In this document: positions 2,676-37,320 of the stretch, one piece after another
Numbering within the stretch: position 1 is the first letter of the stretch
Layout: every line of letters starts with the position of its first letter
Assembly: GCA_016933785.1 (NCBI GenBank)
Contig: JAFGAG010000010.1
Coordinates: forward strand, 1-41,722
DNA length: 41,722 nucleotides
Source of the DNA: Coriobacteriia bacterium
GTDB taxonomy: Bacteria > Actinomycetota > Coriobacteriia > Anaerosomatales > Anaerosomataceae
Reading direction: 5' to 3'
Position numbers and translations under genes: made by a program
Notes under the pieces: model-generated
Seen by the model: only the letters and a program-made list of their open reading frames with translations
Database searches by the model: none
What the model was told of the DNA's origin: nothing

Positions 2676-3881
2676 ATGACAGGGACCGTGCGGGATCCGA
2701 GGGCGATCGTGCTCGTGCTCGACAGCGTGGGAGCCGGGGAGCTCCCTGACGCTGCGGAGTACGGTGACGTGGGATCCAACACGCTCGGCAACACGGCGGC
2801 CGCCGTGGGCGGGCTTGCGATGCCCAACCTCGGCGCGATGGGCCTCGGCAACATCACGGACATCCTCGGCGTGTCGCCACGGGTTGATACGGTCGGGTCC
2901 TGGGGCAAGAACGCCGAGCGCTCCGCGGGAAAGGACACCACCACCGGCCACTGGGAGATGATGGGAGTGGTGCTCGAGCACGCGTTCCCCACCTACCCGC
3001 AGGGGTTCCCGGACGACGTGATCGCCGAGTTCTGCCGGCTGACGGGCTACGAAGGTGTGCTCGGCAACACCGTGGCCAGCGGCACCGTCATCATCAACGA
3101 GCTCGGCGACGAGCATATGGCCAGCGGCCTGCCCATCGTGTACACCTCGGCAGACTCGGTGTTCCAGATCGCGGCCCACGAAGAGCGTTTCGGGCTGGAC
3201 GAGCTCTATCGCGTGAGCGAGATCGCCCGGGAGATGCTGGTGGGCGAGCACCATGTGGGGCGTGTGATCGCACGGCCGTTCGTGGGGCCGGACGAGAGCG
3301 GTACCTACACGCGCACGCACCGGCGGCGCGACTATGCGGTCAAGCCGTTCGAGCCGACGGTGCTCGACCTGCTGCAGGACGGCGGCGTGCCGGTCTTCGG
3401 CGTGGGCAAGATCGGCGACATCTTCGCATGGCAGGGAATCACGTCCTCGCCGCACGTGACCGACAACATGGACGGATTCGACAAGCTGCTCGCCGAGGTC
3501 CGCCGCCCCGAGCGGGGATTCGTCTTCTGCAACCTCGTGGACTTCGACATGCTGTGGGGTCACCGCAACGACGCGCAGTCCTACGCGGCCGGGCTCGAGG
3601 CGGTCGACCGGCGCATGCCCGAGCTGCTGGACGCGATGGTCGACGGTGACTTGCTCATCATCACCGCGGATCACGGCTGCGACCCCACCACCGAGTGGTC
3701 CACCGACCACAGCCGCGAGTACACGCCACTCATCGTGAAGGTGAAGGGCGTGGACGCCGGTGTGGATCTGGGCATACGTGAGACCTTCGGCGACATCGGG
3801 GAGACGGTGCTCGACTTCTACGGCCTGCGTGACCGGTGCGGCCGGGGAACGTCGTTCCTCAGGGAGGTGCGCGGACGGTGA
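2676..3881 (+). CDS. deoB: Phosphopentomutase
   Basis: Interconverts ribose or deoxyribose 1-phosphate and 5-phosphate, linking nucleoside breakdown to the pentose phosphate pathway. The 401-residue length fits the family. It belongs to the alkaline phosphatase fold: an N-terminal metal site V-L-D-S-V-G-A-G-E, the phosphorylated threonine segment G-K-D-T-T-T-G-H-W-E (around 85-94), and the C-terminal metal site I-T-A-D-H-G-C-D-P-T with T-D-H-S-R-E-Y-T-P. GGAGG precedes the ATG. The stop overlaps the GTG of the pyrimidine-nucleoside phosphorylase gene, so the two are translationally coupled and work in sequence: phosphorylase makes the pentose 1-phosphate that this enzyme uses. Confidence 0.96.
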   Translation: MTGTVRDPRAIVLVLDSVGAGELPDAAEYGDVGSNTLGNTAAAVGGLAMPNLGAMGLGNITDILGVSPRVDTVGSWGKNAERSAGKDTTTGHWEMMGVVLEHAFPTYPQGFPDDVIAEFCRLTGYEGVLGNTVASGTVIINELGDEHMASGLPIVYTSADSVFQIAAHEERFGLDELYRVSEIAREMLVGEHHVGRVIARPFVGPDESGTYTRTHRRRDYAVKPFEPTVLDLLQDGGVPVFGVGKIGDIFAWQGITSSPHVTDNMDGFDKLLAEVRRPERGFVFCNLVDFDMLWGHRNDAQSYAAGLEAVDRRMPELLDAMVDGDLLIITADHGCDPTTEWSTDHSREYTPLIVKVKGVDAGVDLGIRETFGDIGETVLDFYGLRDRCGRGTSFLREVRGR

Positions 3882-34154: not shown

Positions 34155-34179
34155 TCTCCGGACGCGAGGATGGTCCTGG

Positions 34180-34361
34180 AAACAGAGGTGTCCCGAGAAA
34201 CCCGGCCAGCCTCATCCGTAGTCCTCAGCTTCCCGTTTCTTACCATCGTAGAACCCGCCCGGCACGGTCCCGCTTGCGCTTGACCCACCTTCGAGGCTCC
34301 CGTCAGGCAGCTACTGGTACGCTGACTTTCCGGTTCCGCTCGGCCCGACCTCTCGGGACAC
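34180..34361 (-). ncRNA. Structured non-coding RNA gene candidate, about 180 nt
   Basis: On the minus strand an 11-bp perfect closing helix joins GTGTCCCGAGA (34361-34351) to TCTCGGGACAC (34198-34188), with CTCTGTTT after it. The interior holds a hairpin GTCAG/CTGAC, a GGTC...GACC hairpin capped by a GCAA tetraloop, and purine-rich unpaired stretches such as GGTAAGAAACGGGAAGC, typical of conserved RNA cores. A consensus-like promoter ends six bases before the helix. No coding ORF is credible on either strand. Size and architecture recall large ornate bacterial RNAs such as the raiA motif, but I cannot confirm a family; 6S RNA is a less likely option. Confidence 0.6.
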
Positions 34362-34366
34362 GACTC

Positions 34367-34395
34367 ACTGTACGAGTCACCTGACACGGGGTCAA
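34367..34395 (-). promoter_or_regulatory. Promoter of the minus-strand RNA
   Basis: Read on the minus strand: TTGACC (34395-34390), exactly 17 bp, TACAGT (34372-34367). The predicted start, 6-8 bases on, falls at 34361-34359, the first bases of the 11-bp closing helix. The coincidence of promoter spacing and helix end is the main support for a dedicated RNA gene. Confidence 0.65.
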
Positions 34396-34440
34396 GGCTT
34401 TCTCCGACAAAGTTCATGGGAGCTGATGAGCGGTATGAGG

Positions 34441-34627: not shown

Positions 34628-35317
34628 ATGCCCAGCGCGACACTCGAGGAGTACCTGGAGGCCATCTACAAGCTCGCGGAGCGCGCTGCCGTGCGTCCGG
34701 GTCAGATCGCCGATGCCATGGGTGTCTCCGCACCGACCGTAACCGCGACGCTCGGACGGCTCCAAGCGCGCGGACTCATCAACCGTTCCGGGGATGGTGC
34801 CGTCGAACTCACGCTGAGCGGTCGTCAGGGTGCACTGGACATCATCCGCCGTCATCGCCTCGCGGAACGGTTCCTCGTCGACGTTCTGGGTCTGTCGTGG
34901 GACGAGGTGCATGACGAGGCTTGCGAGCTCGAGCATGCGCTCTCCCCGAAGGTCCAGGAGGCGCTCGAACGGTTCATGGACAACCCGGACGTGTGTCCTC
35001 ACGGCCATCCCATCCCGAGCGCGGACGGTGCGATCGCGGTGCAGGAGGGTGGTCCCCTGTGCCAGATCGGTGCGGGCGAAGAGGTGCGGATCGTACGCAT
35101 CGAGGATGAGGACGGTGAGCTGCTGTCGTATCTCTCGTCACTCGGCATGTTCCCGGGCACGTCGGTCCGGGTCTGCGATGTCGCGCCCTTCAAGGGACCG
35201 CTGATGGTGGAGGTCGGCGACGCGCGCTACGCGCTCGGACGCGAGGTGGCCGAGAAGATCGTGGTAGAGGGCGAGGGTGGACACCGGAGACGCGGTAAGC
35301 GCGGCGGGCGCCGGTGA
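34628..35317 (+). CDS. DtxR/MntR-type metal-dependent repressor with FeoA-like C-terminus
   Basis: A 229-residue regulator. Residues 5-65 form the winged helix (E-E-Y-L-E-A-I-Y-K-L, then G-V-S-A-P-T-V-T-A-T-L). Residues 66-125 are the dimer domain with metal-ligand candidates in R-R-H-R-L-A-E and E-A-C-E-L-E-H-A-L-S. P-H-G-H-P-I-P closes it, and residues ~145-215 are an SH3-like FeoA-type domain (L-G-M-F-P-G-T-S-V-R-V). The basic tail R-R-R-G-K-R-G-G-R-R is unusual. A strong ribosome site, GAGGTGA, precedes the ATG. It overlaps feoB by 4 bp and no separate feoA exists here. It probably represses feoB when Fe2+ (or Mn2+) is plentiful. Confidence 0.9.
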   Translation: MPSATLEEYLEAIYKLAERAAVRPGQIADAMGVSAPTVTATLGRLQARGLINRSGDGAVELTLSGRQGALDIIRRHRLAERFLVDVLGLSWDEVHDEACELEHALSPKVQEALERFMDNPDVCPHGHPIPSADGAIAVQEGGPLCQIGAGEEVRIVRIEDEDGELLSYLSSLGMFPGTSVRVCDVAPFKGPLMVEVGDARYALGREVAEKIVVEGEGGHRRRGKRGGRR

Positions 35318-37320
35318 GTGCGCCATGCCACGACGGTCGCGAGGCGTTCATGGGGCGGCCGGACGCCGAACTGGTGATTGCGCTCGCGGGTAACCCGAAC
35401 GTCGGCAAGTCGAGCCTGTTCAACGCGCTGACCGGCCTCGGGGTCGAGACGGCGCACTATCCCGGCACCACGCGCGAGGTCTTCACCGGTATCGCGCGTG
35501 CCGGTGAGCGTTCGGTCGGTGTCATAGACCTCCCGGGCAGCTACGGGTTCACCGGTGTCGCCGAGGAGGATGTTGTTGCGCTGAGGGCGCTGGAGGACCT
35601 CGAGCCCGACGTGGTCGTCGTGGTCGTTGACCCCACCACACTCGGCCGCACACTCTATCTCGCGCTCGAAGCCATCGACCTCGGCTATCGTGTCGTGCTC
35701 GCGGTGAACCTGGTCGACGAGGCGCGCCGCTCGGGTCTGGAAGTCGACAGCGGAGCGCTTGCCACGGCACTCGGCATCCCGGTGATCCCGACGGTCGCGA
35801 CGCAGGGTATAGGCGTGAGCGATGTGGTCGATGCGTGCTTCCGCGTGGCGGAGGGGCCCGTCCCCGAGCCCCCGGGCTACGGTCCTGACTTCGAGGCGTT
35901 GCTCGAGCCGCTCGTCTCTGCCTGCAGCGAGGCTGTGTGCCTCCCGTGCGGGCGGAGTGCGCGCGGAGCAGCACTCGAGATGCTGAGCGTTCCCGGCGGC
36001 CCAGAGCAGGAGCGTCCGGCAGGGATCGATGCCGCGCTCAGGCAGGTCCGGAGCTCCATGCGGTCGCACTTCGGGGAGAGTGGGGCGACGCACCTGGCGC
36101 GCGAACGTCACGGTCTGGCAGGGCTCCTGGGTGAGGAGGCGGTGCGGCGAAAGGAGCGGCACTGGCTACCTCGTGACGCGTGGTCTCTCACGACGTGGCC
36201 GTGGACGGGCGTGCCGCTCGTGGTGCTCGTGGCGGCCGGTATCTTCGGGTTCCTCTTCTTCTTCGGCGATCTACTTGCTCGTGGATTCTCCAGCCTTTGG
36301 GGGGCGTTCGCCTCACCGGCGATCACCTCGACCATCACGTCGCTCGTGGGCGAGGGTGTGCTCTCGCGCGTGCTGCTCTGGGGTTTTGACGCGGGTATCG
36401 AGGCGTCGCTCTCGATCGGCCTGCCGTACATCCTCACGTTCTACTTCCTGATCGGCTTCCTCGAGGACACTGGCTATCTCAACTCGCTCGCATTCCTCAC
36501 GGATCGCCTGATGCACCGCTTCGGCCTGCACGGGCGGGCCATCGTGCCGATGGTCGCCTCGGCCGGCTGCAACGTGCCGGCGCTCATGGCGGCGGGTCAG
36601 CTGCCGAGCAAGCGCGAGCGCGTGATCGCCTCCACGCTCGTGCTCTTCGTGCCGTGCAGCGCGCGGACCGCCGTGATCCTCGGTGCGGTCGGTCACTACC
36701 TTGGCTGGCAGCCGACGCTGCTCGTGCTCGGCATCCTGGTGGCCGTGTGGCTCGGCGTGGGCCTGAGCCTTCAGAAGATGGTCCCCGGGACGTCGCGCGG
36801 GCTCGTCATGGAGATGTTCCCGTTCCGCCGTCCGTCGGTCAAGCGAGTCGCGGCCAAGGCGTGGGGGCAGTTCAAGGAGTTCCTGTTCATAGCCACGCCG
36901 ATCGTGATCGTCGGCAGCCTGGTGCTGGGCGGTCTGTATGAGACCGGCTGGCTGGTGAAGCTTAGCGATCCACTCGCGCCGGTCGTCGAGGGATGGCTCG
37001 GGCTGCCAGCTATCGCTGGCCTTACGCTGCTTCTCGGATTCCTGCGCAAGGAGCTCTCGCTGCAGCTGCTCGTGGCGCTTGCGGTGGCCACGGCGGGGTT
37101 TGCCGGCGCCGAGCTGACCGAGCTCATGAGCGCGACGGACATCGTGGTGTTCGCGGTGGTGAACGCGATCATGCTGCCGTGCATATCCACCATGACCGTG
37201 TACTGGAGGCGCAACGGCCTGCCGACCACGGCGATCGCGCTGGGGGCGACGGTCGTCATCGCACTCGTGGTGGGCGGCGTTCTCGCCCGCGTGCTGCCGC
37301 TTATCGGGATGGGCGCGTAG
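35314..37320 (+). CDS. feoB: Ferrous iron transporter FeoB
   Basis: GTP-dependent Fe2+ importer in the inner membrane, 668 residues. The G domain has G-N-P-N-V-G-K-S-S (G1, near residue 27), D-L-P-G-S-Y-G (G3) and N-L-V-D (G4). The membrane half begins near residue 295 and contains A-S-A-G-C-N-V-P-A-L-M-A-A, F-V-P-C-S-A-R-T-A-V and a late P-C-I-S-T-M, the gate motifs with cysteines. It is shorter than the ~770 residues of E. coli FeoB because loops and tail are reduced. GTG 35314 overlaps the regulator stop; ATG 35350 (M-G-R-P-D) is an alternative that removes a 12-residue leader. Ferrous uptake fits anoxic conditions. Confidence 0.94.
   Translation: MSAPCHDGREAFMGRPDAELVIALAGNPNVGKSSLFNALTGLGVETAHYPGTTREVFTGIARAGERSVGVIDLPGSYGFTGVAEEDVVALRALEDLEPDVVVVVVDPTTLGRTLYLALEAIDLGYRVVLAVNLVDEARRSGLEVDSGALATALGIPVIPTVATQGIGVSDVVDACFRVAEGPVPEPPGYGPDFEALLEPLVSACSEAVCLPCGRSARGAALEMLSVPGGPEQERPAGIDAALRQVRSSMRSHFGESGATHLARERHGLAGLLGEEAVRRKERHWLPRDAWSLTTWPWTGVPLVVLVAAGIFGFLFFFGDLLARGFSSLWGAFASPAITSTITSLVGEGVLSRVLLWGFDAGIEASLSIGLPYILTFYFLIGFLEDTGYLNSLAFLTDRLMHRFGLHGRAIVPMVASAGCNVPALMAAGQLPSKRERVIASTLVLFVPCSARTAVILGAVGHYLGWQPTLLVLGILVAVWLGVGLSLQKMVPGTSRGLVMEMFPFRRPSVKRVAAKAWGQFKEFLFIATPIVIVGSLVLGGLYETGWLVKLSDPLAPVVEGWLGLPAIAGLTLLLGFLRKELSLQLLVALAVATAGFAGAELTELMSATDIVVFAVVNAIMLPCISTMTVYWRRNGLPTTAIALGATVVIALVVGGVLARVLPLIGMGA

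Follow-up and report, generated by a model that had tools for sequence, protein, structure and literature searches.

Genes, promoter and extent of the RNA at the locus

The sequence analysed, referred to here as the window, is a 41,722-nt stretch of a contig from a Coriobacteriia bacterium of the order Anaerosomatales. In the gap between a gene for PTPS/QueD and a gene for a DtxR/MntR-like iron-dependent repressor, a covariance model match on the minus strand (34178-34361) located a structured noncoding RNA of about 184 nt, with its 5' end predicted at 34361-34359. The match covered model positions 1-184 with 159.6 bits and E 5e-41, a score to be read with the window copy being among the sequences used to build that model; E-values of the covariance models R1 and R2 are in general rough. 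A first-pass annotation of the same DNA had placed RNA and promoter at 34180-34395; the RNA reaches two bases beyond the lower end, to about 34178. The neighbour described there as an iron regulator is indeed a DtxR/MntR-like repressor, to be amended in that it is fused to FeoA and followed by FeoB. With its C-terminal FeoA domain and FeoB directly next to it (34628-37320), it makes up a self-contained iron regulator-transporter unit.

The minus-strand promoter proposed earlier was present, and its placement was the same in relatives. It is of the sigma-70 type and consists of a -35 box TTGACC (34395-34390), a 17-nt spacer and a -10 box TACAGT (34372-34367), spanning 34367-34395. It was the sole promoter match within 1.1 kb (0.1 expected from shuffled sequences), the pattern TTGAC-N16..18-TANNNT occurred only once on either strand of the whole window, and an RNA-sized stretch with pairing ends begins 6 nt past TACAGT. 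As shown by the alignment of 62 homologs, TTG and TA..(G)T are retained at equal 17-nt spacing, and the sequence between them varies freely. When 96 homologs were compared, a T-rich stretch at -52 to -49 and an A-rich stretch at -45 to -42 upstream of the -35 box exceeded background, and the conserved block began with these A/T tracts (-52 to -42), took in the promoter and ended sharply 12 nt past the closing helix. In the window copy, the corresponding UP-like A/T element (34399-34411) comprises a distal TTT at -52 to -50 (34411-34409) and an AAA (34401-34399) lying 2-3 bases closer to the -35 box. Homologs from a second Actinomycetota class carry TTGACA-N17-TANNNT at unchanged distance, together with a conspicuous upstream A/T tract. 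The UP-like element suggests that the housekeeping RNA polymerase would transcribe the RNA gene strongly and constitutively.

A rod-shaped fold with covarying helices and a GNRA-capped tip

The perfect 11-bp helix and the GCAA tetraloop claimed by the first-pass annotation were both found. GTGTCCCGAGA (34361-34351) pairs perfectly with TCTCGGGACAC (34198-34188), and 152 nt are enclosed. The conserved closing helix P1 exceeds these 11 bp, as it pairs 34359-34347 with 34202-34190, to which the window adds two flanking pairs; its 5' strand thus occupies 34347-34361 and its 3' strand 34188-34202, 99.5% of cells are paired over the two classes, and it contains two tandem G-U wobbles. The helix alone was unremarkable, since the window holds seven 11-mer inverted-repeat pairs at a separation of 100-220 nt. 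The minus strand folded at -84.5 kcal/mol (z -3.05), with 2 of 200 shuffled sequences folding equally well, and the plus strand gave a z of -1.15. By itself, the window evidence is therefore only suggestive of an RNA gene; what proves the gene is the conservation in relatives.

Inside P1, the RNA forms a rod of covarying helices with purine-rich internal loops between them. P1 is followed by the short helices P2-P4 (5' strands within 34331-34343, at 34343-34342, 34339-34337 and 34334-34331; partners 34207-34206, 34211-34209 and 34218-34215), a GAAAG / ANUA internal loop that seems to resemble the loop-E (bulged-G) motif, helix P5h (34321-34325 with 34229-34225) and a GUA/GAA loop. Beyond it come an invariant CC/GG step, a UAG/AAA loop, helix P7h (34306-34310 with 34244-34239), a variable arm and the GNRA tip. 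The core internal loops contain the near-invariant GUACCAG (34314-34320), in which the GUA loop is found in 62 of 66 homologs opposite GAA or AAA and CC and G are invariant. Their 3' side is the conserved GAAACGGGAAG (34229-34239), with AAA in 66/66 and GG and AA invariant. Most invariant bases lie in the internal loops, and none of them forms an unpaired seed. The upper arm (34248-34302; 34302-34298 with 34252-34248, and 34284-34282 with 34269-34267) covaries despite low sequence conservation and ends in the apical hairpin GC-GCAA-GC (34279-34272), whose tetraloop is GNRA in nearly all of the 66 homologs. At four loci (L080, L081, L082 and L060), one or two hairpins were inserted past the invariant core GAAA, a lineage-specific expansion site; structured RNAs accept such insertions at tolerated sites.

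P1 is followed by a pyrimidine- and U-rich tail (34178-34189), which from its composition across homologs is a probable self-terminator. Over 12 nt the tail has 43% T vs 18% further on; by genome type, it is 42% U in high-GC genomes and 63% U in the lower-GC second class, for example UCUUUAUUUUU. P1 together with this tail would end the RNA's own transcription by intrinsic termination, and termination at the tail is supported by the tail being U-richer in the AT-richer genomes. At some loci another hairpin lies downstream of the RNA.

Covariation supports the structure across two classes

The structure was evaluated on an alignment of 66 sequences from both groups (A4), which was aligned with the structure model and so favours that structure of 45 pairs. 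Paired cells amounted to 90.7% compared with 75.6% after shuffling and 31-52% in slid controls; both sides had changed in 470 cells vs 157 in shuffled alignments, with slid controls far lower, and such double changes occurred in 33 of the 45 pairs. The covariation score was 0.498 vs 0.223 in the control.

We further applied a tree-aware null modelled on R-scape, though not R-scape itself, in which substitutions were re-dealt along the tree. The 13 top-scoring of all column pairs were all proposed pairs, and 8 of them had E<0.05. The significant pairs included 8-268 in P1 (G-C 34, A-U 30 and C-G 2), 48-229, 49-228 and 50-227 in the core helix P5h, 67-181 and 70-176 in P7h and 111-143 in the apical stem. 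Pair 67-181 ranked third though it was absent from the initial model, and 35-242, 37-241 and 38-240 (P2-P4) ranked within the 13 best. With the order-only alignment just 2 pairs passed the tree-aware null, and the signal became strong when the second class was added. The closing helix, on whose conservation and covariation in relatives the first-pass annotation had staked its proposal, thus displays both, and comparative sequence evidence supports the proposed undescribed structured RNA gene with its own minus-strand promoter.

Distribution of the RNA in Actinomycetota

A blastn-type search found the element in 52 of 61 related genomes, typically in two copies each, and most full-length matches had 65-88% identity. 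With covariance model R1, homologs were identified in 64/69 sampled Anaerosomatales/OPB41 (Coriobacteriia) genomes, usually two per genome, and in 0/179 sampled genomes of other Coriobacteriia, giving 64 positive genomes out of 248 for the class sample. A phylum-wide search with R1 revealed full-length homologs of 55-108 bits in further families. These second-class homologs have 40-54% GC and retain the closing helix, GUACCAG, GAAA, GGRAA, the GNRA tip and the tail. Model R2, built on Anaerosomatales and second-class sequences, detected the RNA in 29/36 genomes of the second Actinomycetota class (24/26 good ones), with 1-4 copies. Confinement of the RNA to Anaerosomatales, considered before the phylum-wide model search found the second class, was consequently wrong. 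The term lineage-specific RNA, offered by the first-pass annotation as one option, is apt in kind and too narrow in extent, as the family spans Anaerosomatales and the second class. The family is older than one order.

An exact-core-pattern scan of 84,980 species, by which alone other phyla were covered, returned 73 matches, all in records titled actinobacteria. No viral contig contained the exact core pattern, and a viral origin was rejected on this basis. Public MAG records titled Slackia (L120, L183, L164) and Aeromicrobium (L125, L172) also carry the RNA; their titles look misassigned.

Genomic context, paralogs and short relatives

Across the order, 56 copies lie between queD (convergent) and the DtxR/MntR-like gene (divergent), and a monophyletic second copy group occupies unlinked loci, with gatB among the genes nearby. 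Second-class copies, too, have queD, cobO or rnhA in their vicinity, and the flanks across copies further include ubiD and others. A small number of copies sit between queD and mntR in reversed orientation; at L089, L102 and L105, the RNA gene shares the strand of these two genes. The earlier description of the RNA as antisense to everything around it therefore fits the window, with the corrections that it overlaps no gene there and that other copies differ in context and orientation. A leader or local antisense role is disfavoured by the unlinked and inverted copies. The RNA has been passed on by vertical descent, located 3' of a queD or rnhA gene cluster, with duplication to unlinked sites; its position is inherited, and its function is presumably independent of position. 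In several Anaerosomatales genomes (G004:C14, G027:C26 and others), the RNase P RNA gene is situated some 14 kb away from the queD-linked copy.

The window's own genome has a second paralog (G000:C5:709-889, L002), which belongs to group B and has a TTGC-type -35 box instead of TTGAC. In genome G008, two near-identical copies (L043:1981-2161 and 3585-3765) lie 1.6 kb apart, a recent duplication. Shortened paralogs of 47-188 nt (L213, L222-L230) keep the closing helix and the U-rich tail and have the upper domain replaced, and genomes with them hold up to four copies. In the 97-nt L213 the base is kept and a GUAA loop replaces all above the core helix; L222, L223 and L225 retain P1 and portions of the base; the 47-68-nt versions consist of P1 and tail only. 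Outside the two groups the short versions are weak and partly promoterless, so that their kinship is tentative, and weak P1-only matches in families f43, f54, f59 and f69 may be chance terminators.

Comparison with known RNA families

The Rfam search proposed in the first-pass annotation (raiA RF03072 and 6S) returned no match at the locus. At gathering thresholds Rfam 15 had no match in the window; with relaxed settings (to E 10) there were two chance matches near E 2-6, both outside the RNA. At E 1, nothing was found at 14 Anaerosomatales loci, and 13 loci of other families gave only one chance lncRNA match (0.37). Among papers on OPB41/Anaerosomatales and structured-RNA surveys, none is recognisable by title or abstract as describing the RNA. 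By sequence comparison, the RNA founds a family that is not in Rfam 15. What is new here is the RNA family; stand-alone structured RNAs in general were known before.

Canonical raiA (RF03072) was a separate single-copy gene in 54/61 relatives, with 149-171 bits against a gathering threshold of 101.3, and the raiA model had no match at the window locus to E 10 or at homologous loci to E 1. 6S RNA (RF00013), whose model did not match here, was likewise found over or near threshold at a separate locus in 54/61 relatives, including the window's assembly (G000:C41:3259-3429). RNase P (RF00010) and SRP (RF00169) RNAs did not match here and were separate genes in 18/21 and 12/13 genomes. Model R2 in turn did not match any raiA, 6S or RNase P locus. 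Since the known RNAs are encoded separately in the same genomes, the RNA is none of raiA, 6S, RNase P or SRP.

Assignments to tRNA or tmRNA, to leaders and to Y RNA were rejected as well. ARAGORN found no tRNA or tmRNA in the window. A riboswitch or mRNA leader was dismissed because no constant gene follows on the same strand, the window's downstream queD being antisense. Y RNAs share the conserved closing stem, pyrimidine tail and variable upper domain, but their partner protein Ro/Rsr (TROVE) was encoded in 0/61 genomes, with the positive control found. Ms1 RNA is flanked by HAD hydrolase and oxidoreductase genes (PMC9130861), whereas the flanks here are queD, dtxR-feoA or others.

Discussion

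Comparative evidence makes it almost certain that the locus holds a stand-alone gene for a structured noncoding RNA of about 184 nt with its own promoter, and that a family of such RNAs exists. A DNA element without any RNA, such as a MITE-like repeat or a palindromic terminator, would account for the long inverted repeat and the several copies per genome; it is nevertheless most improbable, because an inverted DNA repeat would not preserve G-U pairs and the tandem wobbles in P1 are kept over 66 sequences, one pair being G-U in 64/66. Promoter placement, vertical synteny and low copy number also speak against it. A divergent raiA/ModT RNA, suggested by the first-pass annotation, can be set aside with similar assurance. 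Both are stand-alone structured RNAs of about 200 nt with their own promoter in Actinomycetota, yet they are similar neither in sequence nor by covariance model, each model fails to match the loci of the other and the two coexist in nearly all these genomes, which at the level of sequence refutes raiA homology. A second RNA of the 6S/Ms1 type, a DNA mimic binding RNA polymerase, deserves somewhat more consideration and remains improbable. The fitting length of about 180 nt, the long rod, the strong promoter and the two copies per genome (6S, too, has two paralogs in some species) agree with it; Ms1 is another stand-alone Actinomycetota RNA with a long-range closing helix, binds the RNA polymerase core (PMC4191392, PMC9130861) and takes the place of 6S in Actinomycetes (PMC9130861). 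But these genomes have a separate 6S gene, and the new RNA has no large central bubble: the region matching the open 6S bubble holds covarying helices 2-4, with 82-87% of cells paired, and conserved core-loop sequence and a GNRA tip distinguish it further from 6S. Ms1 is moreover longer and differs in synteny.

Two regulatory readings were also considered. The RNA could be a trans-encoded antisense sRNA whose unpaired, pyrimidine-rich tail (CACCUCU...) pairs with the purine-rich Shine-Dalgarno sequences of target mRNAs and blocks translation, with the rod as a stabilising scaffold, and the tail is indeed conserved, C/U-rich and anti-SD-like in many Anaerosomatales copies. We regard this as unlikely, if slightly less so than the polymerase-binding alternative: the tail varies (CCUG, CUUG, CUCU) and is a plain, terminator-like U-run in the second class, for which reasons a terminator is favoured over an anti-SD tail, and the most strictly conserved positions belong to internal loops and helices. 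Comparably doubtful as the 6S/Ms1 reading is a local regulator, by which the convergent/divergent transcript would control queD and/or DtxR-FeoA/FeoB through antisense pairing or transcriptional interference. The 56 copies between queD and mntR across the order, and the proximity to queD or rnhA among second-class copies, are in its favour; however, the RNA stays clear of both coding sequences, a clade of paralogs is located elsewhere and some copies are inverted in place. The conserved feature is structure, not complementarity, and the linkage fits vertical inheritance.

We favour a new family of self-terminating RNAs that act in trans as RNP-type RNAs, an explanation that as a whole we hold to be reasonably probable. 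The RNA-protein part of it, drawn from anatomy and analogy, has about an even chance of being right. Acting in trans, the RNA would use its conserved base and core loops to bind a protein or another large partner, and the upper arm would be free to vary or be replaced; trans action as an RNP is inferred because the invariant positions lie in internal loops, with no free seed. The paralog clade at unlinked loci, the copies inverted between queD and mntR and the changing downstream gene on the same strand also speak for a trans role. RNP-type function is known or presumed for raiA/ModT, 6S and Ms1. The best functional analogy, without homology, would be raiA/ModT: this RNA reaches the abundance of rRNA, works in trans and may have proteins bound to it (PMC11706538). 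An abundant RNA in an RNA-protein complex is the most likely reading.

The RNA is kept in nearly every genome of the order and of the second class, is often duplicated and has a promoter with an UP-like element, suggesting that it is probably important to the cells. Widespread bacterial RNAs of unknown function are few (raiA, OLE, GOLLD, ROOL), and the present family adds to them from subsurface lineages whose first isolates were described only recently. A bolder reading, which we put forward tentatively and as rather less likely than the RNP role itself, is that of an RNP RNA, ancient and highly expressed, in anaerobic Actinomycetota that branched early, with a constant base (the closing helix with its two tandem G-U wobbles, the GAAAG/AGUA loop and the U-rich tail) and exchangeable upper domains. 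In some lineages its members, 47-188 nt long and as many as four to a genome, would have diversified, and gut Coriobacteriia would have lost it. If this were true, such a modular RNA system would rival 6S or raiA in importance while being unrelated to both.
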